Origin: Boothiomyces macroporosus
Lineage: Eukaryota; Chytridiomycota; Chytridiomycetes; Rhizophydiales; Terramycetaceae
Direction of reading: 5' to 3'
NCBI GenBank assembly: GCA_027604185.1
Contig: JADGKB010000054.1
Coordinates: 33,079-97,078, forward strand
Length of the DNA: 64,000 nucleotides
The translations under genes were made by a program, and so were the position numbers. The notes below the pieces were generated by a model, which worked only from the letters and a program-made list of their open reading frames with translations, did no database searches and was not told the DNA's origin. Shown here one piece after another: positions 1 to 64,000 of the stretch. Numbering within the stretch: the stretch's first letter is position 1; every line of letters begins with the position of its first letter.

Positions 1-3000
1 CTCGCATACAAGCTGGGCTGTTCCGCCTACACCAGTCAAGTTCACACAATACAGTTTTTGATTTGCAAATACTTGCATCACACCATTTACTTTGCGGTGT
101 TCTGTAGGATTGAAGAATACCTCCACAATTTGATTTGATTTGGCAGGAATTGTGAACTTCTGGGTTGAAATTGAGAATGGTGCCCGCACAAGTACAGTGA
201 CATCTAATTCTTGACTTCCATCGTTTTGGAGAAATAGCTTCTTTCTAGCCATATGGAAAATAATAGTGCTTCCAAATTCAATTGTGTCTGGCAAACCATT
301 CAGTATAGTATACAGAGCGACTCCTTTTAGTATGATTGTTCCCAACCTTAAGCTCTTGGCATGAGTAGCTATCGGGTCGATAAATATCTCGCATTTTGTT
401 TCAAATGACCCTGATACTTCGGTTGTGAACCTAAACGGAACAACAAATGTTTCCCATTTATTCAGCTCCCCCCGAATAACAGGCATTTCAAAAGCGAGGG
501 TTTTTCTAGCGGAGGGTGCAACCTTTAGTGACCAGTGATATCTAAAGTTGTAAGGATTACATAGCATCAAATGTCTAGTACAATCCTGATTACAATCCCC
601 AGACAATTCTATTTTACCAAAGTCAAGAACAAACTGCTGCTCGACATGATTTTGAAATGGTAGAAGCATAAACCCAAGACCGAGTCTCTTCACTATTTGA
701 GTAGAGCTGTGCAGATAGTTTCCGAAATCTACAGCTGCTGCAAATCCGATAACCGTAACCAATGTCCCTACATTTGCGGGGGGATTGAAATAGCTGTCTA
801 GCCTTTGCAATTCTCCCGGTTCCAATTCCTTTTGTTTTGGATCCAATGTAAATCCAGACGACGCAAAGAAGCGGACCTTTTTTGTACTGCTCCCTCTATT
901 TTGAATAGTTAACGATTGAGGTGTGGTACTAAAGTCACCCACGGTTTCACATATATAAGGGTCTGTCTTGAATGCAACTTCATAATTGGTATCAGATGGG
1001 ATTGCAAGGACATCTTTACCGTCATCCGCCCACATCTCATCAGTATACTCCAGTTTTAAGGTTCGCGTTCGTGAAAACCAGTTTAATACTTGCTCAAATG
1101 CAGGGTGAATTTTCAGGTCTGGATTTTCATATCGAGGCTCGATACATGTACCAATCAAGTATAGTTCTTTTCCCTTCATTGTAGCATCCAATAGCATTAT
1201 ATTTGGATGGGTCATCTGCATTTTAACTTCTTTCATATAGCATCCTGTTCGGAAAGGCTGGAATTTAAAAGTTACTGGAACAATTGAAAAAGCCTGGACT
1301 TCCATCAAATTATTCTCTGAAAAGTTTTGTGCCACTGTAATTTGTTTTACTTTGTTTTGCTCCTCTACAAAATCTGGGAAATAAAGCTTTACATCATACT
1401 GAGACTCGTTCACAACCACGGTGCTAAAATTAACTGACTGCGATAGCCTGACAGGCTTGAAAAAGACGTAATCATAGAGAGGCAGGTAGATGGGGTGTCC
1501 AACGTAGGCAGTAATATTTATACCGACATTTTCAAAGTCTTGACATGAAACCTCCAGCACAGAACTGTAGTTGCCTCTTGTTTGGAACTTTAAACTATTG
1601 TAGGTGAAAACAACATTGATTGTGCTGGCACTTCTAGGAGCTACTCGTACCAAGTAGGGACACGTTATCAATTTATCATATGGATACAAGCTGCAAGTGA
1701 TAGGATCATGCCCCCAGTTTAAGATGGTTAAACATCTCGTTTCTTGAATATTATCCGGGGTGCAAATACCAAAATCTAATGTATGTGAAATTTTTCTTTG
1801 AACAGGATCAATTTGCGCTGCTGTAATTGATTTCATGATCTGCATCTCAAATGGTGTAAGTCCTGATGTACTTGGGTCGTTGTGGTGAGATTTATCAACC
1901 TTTTTAATAAGTTGTGTTCTTTCAAAGGAAAGGGCAGTGATACCAAGCAACGAATTTTTTTCGTTTTCTGGATATATAGCCATTGGCATATCCGTAGTTC
2001 CCACCAATTGAACCAATATTTCTTCTCCTCCAGGTCCATGGAATATAATGTTTTCAGAAACCCTTCCAGGGGTTTTTGGATAGAATATAATCGGGATTTT
2101 CAAAGTTTCGAGAGCTTTGAGTTTGATGGAATCATAATCAATCTGGAATGAGTAGCTATGTCTGTCCCTGATGGTCACTTTCTGTCCTTCCTCATTTTCC
2201 ATAGTCTTTCCTAATTGTACGTTGAGTGTGATTTGATATTCTGCCAAATTCTCGATGTGAATGAATAACTCTTTTTTCTTCATTGGAAGTACCCATCCGG
2301 CATCAATAAAGGTCGGTGTTATCTTGAAGAATTTCTTTTTGATTGCCGATAACCTTGAAGTGGCCATTTTGCGTCCGTATCGATCGAAAACATGCAGCCC
2401 GCCATCAATATTGGTGTTTTTCATCGAAAGAGGGTAGAATGTGACTGCAATTTCATATACACCCTCTCCTTGAAGTTTGAAATGGAAATCTTTGATAGAA
2501 AACACGTTTGGAGGCTCCACAGCTATAAAGTATTCCCGTTCAGTGTAATCACCTCTCCCTGCTTTAAACCGTAACGCTACAGTTTTAGTCATTGGAGCCC
2601 GTGAGCTATGGAAATCACAGTGTCCTGGCTCGGTTACGATTCTAATGGGTTGTGGTTTCAAATGCGAGAATGCCAAACCTTCTCGCAAGAAATCCGACAA
2701 GTTAGCTGGATCATCGACACAGCTAAAATCTTCAATATTGAAATTTACTTCGTGTTGATATTTTGCTGAAGTATGACCAATCATTCTTGTGTGTGAATCA
2801 ATAACCTTTTTTCTCAGTGTACTATTGTGTTCTTGAAGGTTTTTGTATAATTTTTGTAAAAAGTAGGACTCCAGCTTCCTATATTGTAGACTGCTTGTGT
2901 TTGTCTGTTTTGCCAGTATCGGCAAAAGATCTTCCCAAGTGTCCGTTTCTTGTGGTTCACGACCGTCGTCTCTGAAGAGGTAAGGAAGAGCAAATGTTCC

Positions 3001-61857: not shown

Positions 61858-64000
61858 TTATTTTCTTTTGCTATTCTTCTTTTTGGATATTTTAGATAAG
61901 GCTCTTTTGGCATCGCTGTCTGGGATGTTGTTTAGTGAATAGTAAGACGGAGCCAACTCCAACAGCCAGCTGGGTTCTATTTTACTGCAAGTTCTAATAT
62001 ACTGCTTTGAAGTTAGGACAAACTCGTGGTACATAACCCAATCATCCTTTCCTTTCAGGCAGGTTGAAGGATGCAATACAACTTTCTATCGTTAGATATC
62101 ATTTACAAGGTCATCCTTTGCAATTGTATAAACGCCCGCTTTGCCTGCATGGGCAACATGCATATAAAAACCAGCACATAATGCTTTCCTAACATTTCGG
62201 GAAAGTTGTTCATAATTACCAGCATTATTGCTACCTAGACCGTGTTTGGAGAGATACCTTTTCAATTGTGACCTAATATTCACAGCTTGTTTGAGATTTC
62301 GAGCATTTAGAAAATTGTCAAAGCACCATTTTGGGTTGCAATCGTTCTCAATGTACGAATTGTAGACGTTCAAGAGAGTCAAATGGTCGCCATGTTCATG
62401 TTCAAATCTTGACTTTGCGGCGTCTGCCTTTCGTTGATTATTTTTTGGCCGCACAAATACTGGAGGAACGTTAAGAACTGCGACGATGGTCAATACTTCC
62501 TCGGCACAATTGAACTTTGGTGAAACCATCAAAGCATGGGAGAATTGAGGATCAAGAGGAAAGTCAGCCATCAAGGAGCCGTATTCCGTAAGGTTACCTT
62601 GGCTATCAAACGCCCCAAAATAAAATAGCATTTCCAACGCGCGCATCATAGTTTCGGGAGCTAAATTAGGACCAAGTGTACCTGGAGGATCCATGAAATC
62701 AAATTTAATCAAGTTTTCTACTCCAATCTTTTTCAGCTGCAGAACCACACTGGCAATGTTACTCTTCAAAATCTCTGGATACGTCTGCTCCTCCAACTCT
62801 TCCTGGAATACCTTTTCAGTATATAATCTATAACATTTGCCAGGTCTTGTTCTTCCTGCTCTTCCAGATCGCTGCTGTGCGCTAGCTTTGGAAATTGGAC
62901 TGACTAAAAGAGACTCTACCCTCATACGAGGATGATACACTTTCTGCTTTGAAAACCCAGGATCGACAACATATACAATTCCATCTATTGTTAAAGATGT
63001 TTCCGCAATGTTTGTGGATGCCACCACCTTTCTTCCATTACAGTTTTGAAATATCTTTGCTTGCTCAAGCGGAGAAAGGTTGGAATACAGGGGAAGAGGC
63101 ACTAAAGGGCCATACTGTTTTTCTAGTTCCACACTTGAAATTCTCAAATTTTTACATGTTTCTTCTATTTCGTCTTCACCAGTTAAGAACAGTAAAATGT
63201 CACCTGGCGGTTCTTTCTTGTGTATCTGCAAAACTGTTTTTACCGCAGCTTCTACGTAGTCTTTCTCTACTTGTTTGGTGTAATATATTTCTACTGGGAA
63301 GGTTCTACCTGGAACGCTCTAGAATTAGATATACTTTACCATCAATGGTGCATTGTCGAAATACTTTTGAAACTTTTCTGCGTCCAAAGTAGCCGACATT
63401 ACTACTACCTTCAAATCTCTTCTCTTGCGGCAAATCTACATTAGTATGTTATTACCCCCTTGATGAGACCCATCAATATATCTGTAGCCAAAGTTCTGTC
63501 GTGCGCTTCGTCCAAAATAATGGCCGAATATCTGCTTAACAGTGGGTCTGTCATGGCTTCGCGGAGAAGCATACCATCAGTCATGTACTTTAGCAGTGTC
63601 TTGTCCGATGTGCACTCTTCAAAACGGATAGAATATCCCACTTCCTCTCCCAATTCAACGTCCATTTCTTCTGCCACACGCTTTGCTACTGAAGTTGCTG
63701 CCACTCTTCTCGGCTGCGTGCATGCAATCTGTCTGTTTTTTAGCTGTGGTTGCTCGTCAAATAACAAGAACTGGGGGATTTGTGTGGTCTTTCCGGACCC
63801 AGTCTCTCCAACCAGCACCAATATCTGGTTGCTGTGGATCAAATCCAAGAATTCTGACCGCTGTTTGTGGACTGGCAACAGCCTCCTCTTCACCAAAATA
63901 TCTCTATACTTTTCTGAAAAAGGACGGCCGGTAAAGTGATTGGTTGGTGCATCTTCCAGCTGTTCCGCTTGCTCTGCTGTGGTCTTTCCAGGAACTAATT
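61858..64000 (-). CDS. PRP43: DEAH-box RNA helicase PRP43/DHX15; 5' end outside window
   Basis: Partial: 692 residues visible, exons 64000-63456, 63435-63340, 63318-62107 and 62085-61858 (introns 20, 21, 21 nt). Helicase motifs in order: [14 protein letters not shown] (I), [12 protein letters not shown] (Ia), DEAHDRT (II), SATLDAEKF (III), [12 protein letters not shown] (IV), [13 protein letters not shown] (V), [19 protein letters not shown] (VI), then winged-helix, ratchet and OB domains ([35 protein letters not shown]). Prp43 disassembles the intron-lariat spliceosome and works in ribosome assembly. The [18 protein letters not shown] start block near the edge is diagnostic. A splicing factor is of special interest in a genome with such small introns. 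Confidence 0.97.

Follow-up and report, generated by a model that had tools for sequence, protein, structure and literature searches.

Introns of 19-23 nt, apparently built on a single plan, in the chytrid fungus Boothiomyces macroporosus

Results

Genes of the window and their introns

The DNA analysed here (the window, 64,000 nt) covers positions 33,079-97,078 of contig JADGKB010000054.1 (assembly GCA_027604185.1) from Boothiomyces macroporosus (Chytridiomycota, Rhizophydiales, Terramycetaceae). The organism is a Rhizophydiales chytrid and not a member of a Rozella- or aphelid-type lineage; a preliminary description of this DNA had suggested a comparison with Rozella, aphelid and chytrid genomes. 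Its genes are listed in Table 1, mostly as called by a gene finder with learned splice PWMs and introns of 12-45 nt permitted (the PWM model).

Table 1. Gene models of the window and their introns (window positions)
Gene	Position	Strand	Introns	Basis
Large gene, open at window start	1..6304	-	5430-5448, 4825-4845, 3749-3769, 3563-3583	PWM model
PMS2/MutL-type gene	7087..8872	-	7556-7574 (19 nt)	Two gene-finder runs; family name by eye
MNS1-like coiled-coil gene, 491 aa	13314..14868	+	13773-13792, 14023-14042, 14491-14509, 14771-14790	PWM model; family name from preliminary description
Tubulin tyrosine ligase-like (TTLL), 423 aa	14902..16374	-	Ten, 19-23 nt	Region rerun; family name from preliminary description
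GINS subunit PSF2, 166 aa	21021..21597	+	Four, each 19 nt: 21105-21123, 21239-21257, 21352-21370, 21489-21507	PWM model
Class V-type myosin	21878..26719	+	22028-22047, 22173-22192, 22362-22381, 25433-25454, 25669-25690, 26216-26235, 26466-26488	PWM model; family name by eye
Acetoacetyl-CoA synthetase (AACS), 648 aa	26759..28887	-	Nine, 19-21 nt: 28771-28790, 28647-28666, 28508-28528, 28268-28288, 27853-27872, 27709-27727, 27578-27597, 27325-27344, 27150-27170	PWM model
ATP-citrate lyase-like	36153..39663	+	36492-36512, 38003-38023, 39034-39055	PWM model; family name by eye
MAPKKK-type kinase	49800..53010	+	50887-50906, 51018-51038, 51612-51632, 51879-51899, 52092-52112, 52173-52192	PWM model; family name by eye
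PH/RhoGAP-type gene	53164..56685	+	54262-54281, 54396-54416, 55417-55437, 55675-55693, 56508-56528	PWM model; family name by eye
D-lactate dehydrogenase-like	59857..61272	+	60312-60332 (21 nt)	PWM model; family name by eye
Prp43/DHX15-type helicase, open at window edge	61858..63998	-	63436-63455, 63319-63339, 62661-62681, 62086-62106	PWM model

AACS is co-linear over residues 6-638 with the acetoacetate-CoA ligase 4wd1 and 100% identical to the deposited B. macroporosus protein HK103_005663, from which all nine tiny introns have already been removed, so that a correct model is on record for at least one gene. Residues 5-161 of PSF2 have a PDB match (E 9.9e-32), the Prp43/DHX15-type helicase is co-linear with Prp43 3kx2 (E 6.8e-277), and kinase-domain pieces of the MAPKKK-type gene were found at C54:84758-85249 and 85300-85587. 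The protein lengths proposed earlier for AACS, MNS1 and PSF2 were reproduced by the PWM model, which recovered only the 3' piece of TTLL; a rerun of that region, allowing introns of 17-25 nt only, gave the proposed 423 residues and ten introns at one penalty setting out of three, and at the other two the ten were kept and the stop was passed via an eleventh. Five window introns of the PWM model (13, 25, 27, 35 and 38 nt) are doubtful. The 27-nt call (55712-55738) lies in the PH/RhoGAP-type gene, the 35-nt "intron" fuses the PMS2/MutL-type gene to a neighbour that another gene-finder run kept separate, and the 38-nt call starts with a 23-nt candidate that another run chose instead.

Intron lengths

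A first gene-finder run over 274 kb, based on codon usage and GT...AG only and with a flat length prior of 8-300 nt, called 87 introns of 19-22 nt, against 2-9 in identical runs with each of eight other dinucleotide pairs; outside 19-22 nt there was no GT-AG excess over these controls. The peak is specific to GT-AG, the start and end of major-class introns. With the PWM model, 340 of 381 introns were 19-23 nt long, including 68 of the 73 in the window, where lengths of 19, 20, 21, 22 and 23 nt occurred 19, 20, 23, 5 and 1 times, close to the 21, 27, 19, 6 and 3 among the 76 introns reconstructed in the preliminary description. The claim made there that all introns measure 19-23 nt stands as a statement of dominance, but not as a genome-wide absolute, and "none longer" fails outside the window. 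There, four introns are probably longer: kinesin genes (C36 and C113) have one each of about 26 and 66 nt, and CCT genes (C25 and C75) one each of about 44 and 111 nt; these two families also yielded an abutting 20+20 nt pair.

Introns were present in 113 of 164 gene models, and we estimate about 20,000 for the whole genome, a 15-Mb nucleus. Retention of the 21-nt introns would add an in-frame stop in 74 of 88 cases, of a kind that the gene finder itself favours. A genome-wide probe of GTAAGT, 12 N and TAG matched 232 times and its reversed counterpart 229 times; this was a poor probe because GTAAGT (18/340) is not the favoured donor, which is GTAATT (51/340). Nearly all introns of B. macroporosus appear to be 19-23 nt long and to follow a single fixed plan, while those usually reported in fungi are far longer.

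By homology only, adjacent exon pairs on other contigs showed a gap excess of exactly 19-23 nt in 53 of 83 cases (CCT 13/17, kinesin 27/37, kinase 13/29). When the nine AACS junctions were viewed against 11 relatives, a Terramyces protein carried a 7-residue insert exactly at one B. macroporosus intron site, which suggests that this site is older than the genus and that the trait could extend to the whole family. At some tiny-intron sites the deposited proteins of relatives seem disturbed.

Signals and geometry

The PWM-based set has a branch-like adenosine, within a YTRAY motif, at intron position 14-16 in 321 of its 336 introns, and a tail of 4-7 nt after it, likewise in 321/336. In the 340-intron set this tail geometry stems in part from the acceptor PWM, from which the 113 introns called without splice PWMs are free; a YTRAY-like site was found near the 3' end in 112 of these, compared with 33.5% of random coding windows, and at least 108 of the 112 combine an A at 14-16 with a tail of 4-7 nt. 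Even without a motif search, 81% of introns have A as the seventh base from the 3' end, and 8% as the ninth. This two-ruler plan (a loop of 14-16 nt and a tail of 4-7 nt) is the new element beyond the preliminary description. The two lengths vary independently of each other (loops 14-16 by tails 5-6, p 0.70), and the 18-nt combination of loop 14 with tail 4, expected 5.6 times, does not occur, which looks like a floor. The donor is weak (1.0, 0.34, 0.09 and 0.22 bits at +3 to +6), which would bring it near the nucleomorph type, where the 5' site has little constraint past GT(A), and the bits of the branch motif are inflated, being centred on the best match. Taken together, the GTA...YTRAY signals look U2-type.

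Decoys with the full plan are absent from coding DNA in the sense direction (shuffle mean 3.9; 2/200 shuffles as low), but also in antisense (mean 7.2). With a looser plan we counted 5 in sense (16.0 +/- 3.6; 0/200) and 14 in antisense (21.6 +/- 4.3), and with shifted loops 5, 2 and 5, against 6.4, 4.7 and 6.8 expected.

Spliceosome parts

The genome holds a U1-like gene (5' ACTTACCT; 68.8 bits, just below the Rfam cut-off of 69.5), two U2 loci, of which the one read has GTAGTA, and a U6-like gene. SF1, Slu7 and Prp18 are present, together with a U2AF65-like protein whose model match (230.7 bits) lies below the cut-off of 310.3. RED is required for human short introns; RED_N had no match in the genome, and since the controls gave none either, this is no sign of absence.

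Discussion

What the genome itself shows are the strings with their lengths, signals and geometry, together with the factors; from these we infer that the spliceosome excises the strings from RNA, that the marked adenosine would serve as branch point and that steric limits may lie behind the rulers. We regard the strings as most probably (about 0.9) spliceosomal introns of the major class (U2-type), reduced nearly genome-wide to a near-minimal 19-23 nt, in agreement with the ultra-short spliceosomal introns of a flagellated fungus proposed earlier, which the GT-AG peak and the branch motif support. That the strings are intron-like only, being passed over by the ribosome or removed from the DNA at another stage of the life cycle, is highly improbable, given their GT...YTRAY...YAG architecture, the GT-AG specificity of the length peak and the U1-, U2- and U6-like genes and splicing factors. 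Their very uniform structure would also fit a recent spread of one short mobile intron family, of which the narrow length would be a relic rather than the outcome of steric selection, but little sequence is common to the introns outside the signals (donor +5, +7 and +8 at most 0.09 bits), the missing 18-nt combination resembles a floor, and one site, judging by the Terramyces insert, predates the genus, so that we find such an origin quite unlikely.

It is also unlikely, if slightly less so, that the ultra-short introns, though dominant, coexist with a sizeable longer class missed by homology and gene finder. The four longer introns come from two gene families and all have G at +5 (4/4, versus 75/340 of the short ones), a hint that they form a class of their own. 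Good signals were also seen in a 45-nt candidate in L010, a milder penalty called 32 longer introns (a count without a control), and UTR introns are beyond the reach of the methods used. Against this, GT-AG counts at 24-300 nt (114) fell under all eight controls (138-178), introns of 24-200 nt numbered 14, versus 13-18 with four permuted PWM sets, and four kinase gaps of 126-252 nt are stop-free protein insertions. The gene-finder "introns" of 24-300 nt called when long introns were permitted were rejected, since many by eye link neighbouring genes or swallow exons and the dinucleotide controls yield equal or higher numbers. Within the gene set studied, longer introns are probably present, as a small minority.

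For introns shrunken in this way, the strong YTRAY motif adjoining the 3' splice site and the weak GTA-type 5' site at a fixed distance upstream would most likely act as a single recognition unit for a spliceosome in which SF1, the U2AF65-like protein, Slu7 and Prp18 would be retained. A polypyrimidine tract has no space 3' of the branch point, and U2AF65 therefore could not bind one there as usual.

The likeness to nucleomorph and heterotrich introns, already drawn in the preliminary description, is apt. Introns of the Bigelowiella natans nucleomorph, as given in the pertinent part of PMC6461891, are spliceosomal, dense (about 3 per kb CDS) and 18-21 nt long (18-23 across species), and resemble those described here in length and density; a 5' splice-site motif could not be identified there and U1 and U5 are shrunken, and the corresponding part of PMC2483917 reports no branch-point signature in chlorarachniophyte nucleomorphs. 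In B. macroporosus, by contrast, a strong branch motif occupies a fixed position, the U1 score comes close to the Rfam cut-off, and the introns belong to a nuclear genome of 15 Mb rather than to a 0.37-Mb relic. Stentor coeruleus, as far as PMC9505925 is drawn on here, shares a narrow length class, a fixed branch A, a 5-nt tail and normal U1/U2 recognition sequences, but its introns are 15-16 nt long, with the A at 10-11 and a weak branch consensus, and occur in 18% of genes, unlike the longer loop, strong motif and wide occurrence seen here. Mikrocytids, according to a portion of PMC10245619, have a very narrow length class (16-17 nt) with conserved sequence, but live as parasites inside cells, with a spliceosome that is strongly reduced and few introns (224 in Mikrocytos mackini), in contrast with our estimated total and retained factors. 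Within the fungi, the "ultra-short" introns of Cryptococcus neoformans, small for the kingdom as here, are those below 60 nt and average 56 nt in the relevant part of PMC11913375, whereas the present ones measure about 20 nt.

At the level of titles and abstract openings, the genome's own publication aside, we found no description of 19-23 nt introns in chytrids. Some surveys, as indicated in part of PMC10639083, discard introns below 30 nt and would miss almost all those of B. macroporosus. In adenovirus E1A pre-mRNA, shortening the distance from 5' site to branch from 50 to 35 nt abolishes spliceosome assembly, according to a section of PMC6692369. The pattern set out in part of PMC2483917, that dense genomes with short introns lose the branch-point signature, is at odds with the strong branch point seen here, but agrees with the weak donor. 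The tiny introns pose the question of what role U2AF65 has without a polypyrimidine tract, and offer a natural test of the smallest intron manageable by ordinary splicing machinery. With its loop of 14-16 nt, B. macroporosus, presumably free-living and non-parasitic, would provide a non-parasitic system to study how U1, U2 and the tri-snRNP are accommodated. On balance we lean, by somewhat better than even odds, towards the broader view that a flagellated fungus, and perhaps the whole Terramycetaceae, has remodelled its introns to a uniform two-ruler minimum with strong branch points and with SF1, U2AF65-like protein, Slu7 and Prp18 kept, which would break the published pattern of branch-signature loss and would mean that about 19 nt can be reached without extreme genome reduction.

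Intron lengths and numbers

Gene models were obtained with a purpose-written finder that had long open frames as its training set and was applied to 274 kb from the Boothiomyces macroporosus assembly (Chytridiomycota, Rhizophydiales, Terramycetaceae; 15.2 Mb, 216 contigs), namely the window (bases 33,079-97,078 of the 97,078-base contig C54) and 21 ten-kilobase loci, of which contigs C1-C20 supplied 20 and C54 itself the remaining one (L009). With GT...AG as the sole splice requirement and all lengths from 8 to 300 nt equally permitted (the signal-free run), 25, 30, 18 and 14 introns were called at 19, 20, 21 and 22 nt (87 altogether), while each of eight alternative dinucleotide pairs gave 2-9 at these lengths. 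Between 24 and 300 nt, GT-AG had the lowest count (114, versus 138-178 in the eight controls), so that no longer intron class stands out, although this is partly expected, since real short introns already repair many frames there.

When donor and acceptor matrices were learned first and lengths of 12-45 nt were permitted (the signal run), 340 of the 381 introns called were 19-23 nt long (77, 130, 88, 39 and 6 at 19, 20, 21, 22 and 23 nt, respectively), as were 68 of the 73 in the window alone. At least one intron is present in 113 of 164 gene models from this run, at 1.58 introns per kb of coding sequence. The 21 non-window loci hold 1.30 introns per kb of genome (bootstrap 1.07-1.54), and the genome-wide extrapolation is ~19,700 introns (16,300-23,500), with false calls counted in and L009 not independent of the window. 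Permitting 24-200 nt with a penalty gave 14 longer introns, versus 13-18 with four permuted matrix sets; a milder penalty gave 32, a figure without control. The TTLL gene of the preliminary description (423 aa, ten introns) was recovered with introns limited to 17-25 nt, under one of three penalty settings.

Intron anatomy

A YTRAY-like branch-point site occurs in 112 of the 113 introns called without matrices (versus 33.5% of length-matched coding windows), and in at least 108 of these 112 its A lies at position 14-16 with 4-7 nt remaining. A motif-free base count finds A in 81% at 7 nt from the 3' end and in 8% at 9 nt. In the larger set, from the signal run, the loop (5' end to the branch-like A, at 14-16) and the tail (4-7 nt after it) each hold in 321 of 336 introns, and their lengths combine independently (p 0.70), with the exception of loop 14 with tail 4 (18 nt), seen 0 times against 5.6 expected, which looks like a floor at 19 nt. 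The branch motif carries ~5.3 bits over five positions, a value inflated by centring on the best match. Past GT the donor is weak (1.0, 0.34, 0.09 and 0.22 bits at +3 to +6), despite which the U1-like gene carries the usual 5' ACTTACCT. A+T content is 71% in introns and 60% in coding sequence, and an avoidance test finds a deficit of the loop-and-tail plan in coding DNA on both strands.

Introns of 15-23 nt are described in chlorarachniophyte nucleomorphs (PMC6461891), heterotrich ciliates (PMC9505925) and mikrocytids (PMC10245619), while "ultra-short" in one fungal paper denotes under 60 nt (PMC11913375). Our search of openly licensed papers found no report of 19-23 nt introns in chytrids. 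According to the pattern outlined in PMC2483917, genomes dense in short introns have weak signals and lack a branch-point signature; B. macroporosus agrees with this outline on the weak donor, but disagrees on the branch point.

Comparison with known proteins

The Prp43, AACS (acetoacetyl-CoA synthetase) and PSF2 models are co-linear with solved relatives in alignment. With its nine tiny introns removed, AACS is identical (100% over 648 residues) to HK103_005663, a hypothetical protein of B. macroporosus, and further matches are found in Terramyces sp. JEL0728 (84%), Boothiomyces sp. JEL0866 (85%) and Globomyces (67%). Several of the nine junctions sit inside highly conserved blocks, such as MLGRSDGTLNPAGVRFGSAE, when compared with 11 relatives. 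An importin-like gene with seven introns has a full-length match (92%) to a protein of 626 residues, and for V-ATPase subunit a (eight introns, 20-22 nt) the Boothiomyces JEL0866 relative has no indel of 4 or more residues.

Junction-near indels in AACS are found in 3 of the 11 relatives. In the Terramyces protein (P0002), seven additional residues (YIFLTAD) fall exactly on the third Boothiomyces intron site (21 nt, phase 1), and the possible codons for these residues would fit retention of a 21-nt GT...YTNAC...GCNG intron having A at position 15; Boothiomyces JEL0866 (P0003) lacks 24 residues, the gap ending four before intron 4, and Kappamyces (P0005) has a 9-residue insert near intron 4. 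The V-ATPase of Globomyces sp. JEL0801 (P0123) lacks 24 residues from one past the second intron site onwards, and another five immediately ahead of the third. In these four proteins it is as if annotation had stumbled at or near tiny-intron sites, but residues are also missing around the site at 634 in Batrachochytrium dendrobatidis V-ATPase, so that gaps alone are no proof of tiny introns.

Homology-only scan and longer introns

Six-frame matches of three Pfam families (CCT, kinesin and kinase) were used to compare neighbouring exons on other contigs, taking the genomic gap minus the model gap for each adjacent pair. The excess was exactly 19-23 nt in 13/17 CCT, 27/37 kinesin and 13/29 kinase pairs, the kinase pairs being hand-picked out of 145 matches and some kinesin pairs being duplicate copies in the assembly. 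The value of 21 nt is absent, because the method reads 21-nt introns through in frame, where they appear as internal stops. From the other 30 pairs, 17 pieces were retrieved and read by eye (see table), and 13 pairs were left out: a duplicate on C42, the kinase gene lying in the window (an excess of 32 nt, 20 of which are its intron 52173-52192), two (-130 and 1080) arising from overlapping or unrelated matches, and nine from the kinase family in which the model gap is long. Among the kinases, gaps of 126, 126, 201 and 252 nt (C24, C71, C4 and C35) were rejected as long introns, since they are stop-free across and thus protein insertions. The twin matches, with (nearly) equal scores and matched positions, suggest that parts of the genome or assembly are duplicated.

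Features located in the window and on other contigs
Feature	Location	Length or excess (nt)	Reading
CCT gene (L037)	C75:41440-41700	~111	probable long intron, GTAAGT to CTAATGATAG
CCT gene (L049)	C25:113900-114020	44	probable long intron, GTAAGC to GTTAACAATAG
Kinesin (L039)	C113:2560-2760	66	probable long intron, GTAAGT to CTAATATTAG
Kinesin (L038)	C36:5080-5320	26	probable long intron, starts GTAAGT
Kinesin (L040)	C53:13900-14080	20 + 20	abutting intron-like units, zero exon between, removed together
Pair read by eye	C64	43	23 + 20
Pair read by eye	C27	40	20 + 20
Pair read by eye	C190	41	20-nt intron inside
Pair read by eye	C38	56	20 + 21 + short insertion
CCT pair read by eye	C36	34	22-nt (or 19-nt) intron + residues
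Pair read by eye	C3	13	19-nt intron, offset by few missing residues
Pair read by eye	C5	11	20-nt intron, offset by few missing residues
Kinesin pair read by eye	C25	38	no assignment to introns
Twin matches	C36:59323-60387 / C36:101507-102571
Twin matches, kinesin pieces	C190 / C42
Twin matches	C10:178323 / C10:231979
Twin matches	C20:74242 / C20:119309
Open frame	window 17818-18381 (-)		intronless, resembles secreted RNase T2 by eye
Tandem gene pair	window 41747-43782 (+)		similar multi-pass membrane proteins, neither with called introns

The earlier statement that no intron exceeds 23 nt does not hold genome-wide: four probable longer introns occur on other contigs, beside more than 60 of the short kind across the three families. 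All four have G at +5 (versus 75 of 340 short introns), and three retain a 6-nt tail without the short loop. The C53 pair is possibly spliced in succession, or as a single 40-nt intron.

Splicing machinery and proposed recognition

The genome has two U2 loci (the one read carries GTAGTA), a U6 gene and a U1 candidate at 68.8 bits (cut-off 69.5). Slu7, Prp18, SF1 and Prp43 are also present, together with a U2AF65-like protein (230.7 bits versus a family cut-off of 310.3) whose RRM1-2 and C-terminal domain match solved U2AF65; the models of these five proteins themselves contain 19-24 nt introns. In yeast, Slu7 and Prp18 are required chiefly for branch points distant from the 3' site, and their occurrence in a short-intron genome is notable. 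A genome search for RED, run without a positive control, gave zero matches. In human cells, a short distance from 5' site to branch is described as making splicing dependent on Smu1 and RED (PMC6692369), and a truncated polypyrimidine tract as requiring SPF45 instead of U2AF65 (PMC8363638).

Since branch motif, AG and GT all fall within 23 nt, recognition most likely takes the intron as a single unit and centres on the branch point; U1 and U2 would be unable to sit far apart. The difference at +5, seen in four long introns, might mean that fixed geometry makes a weak donor sufficient for short introns and that the rare longer introns require a good donor.
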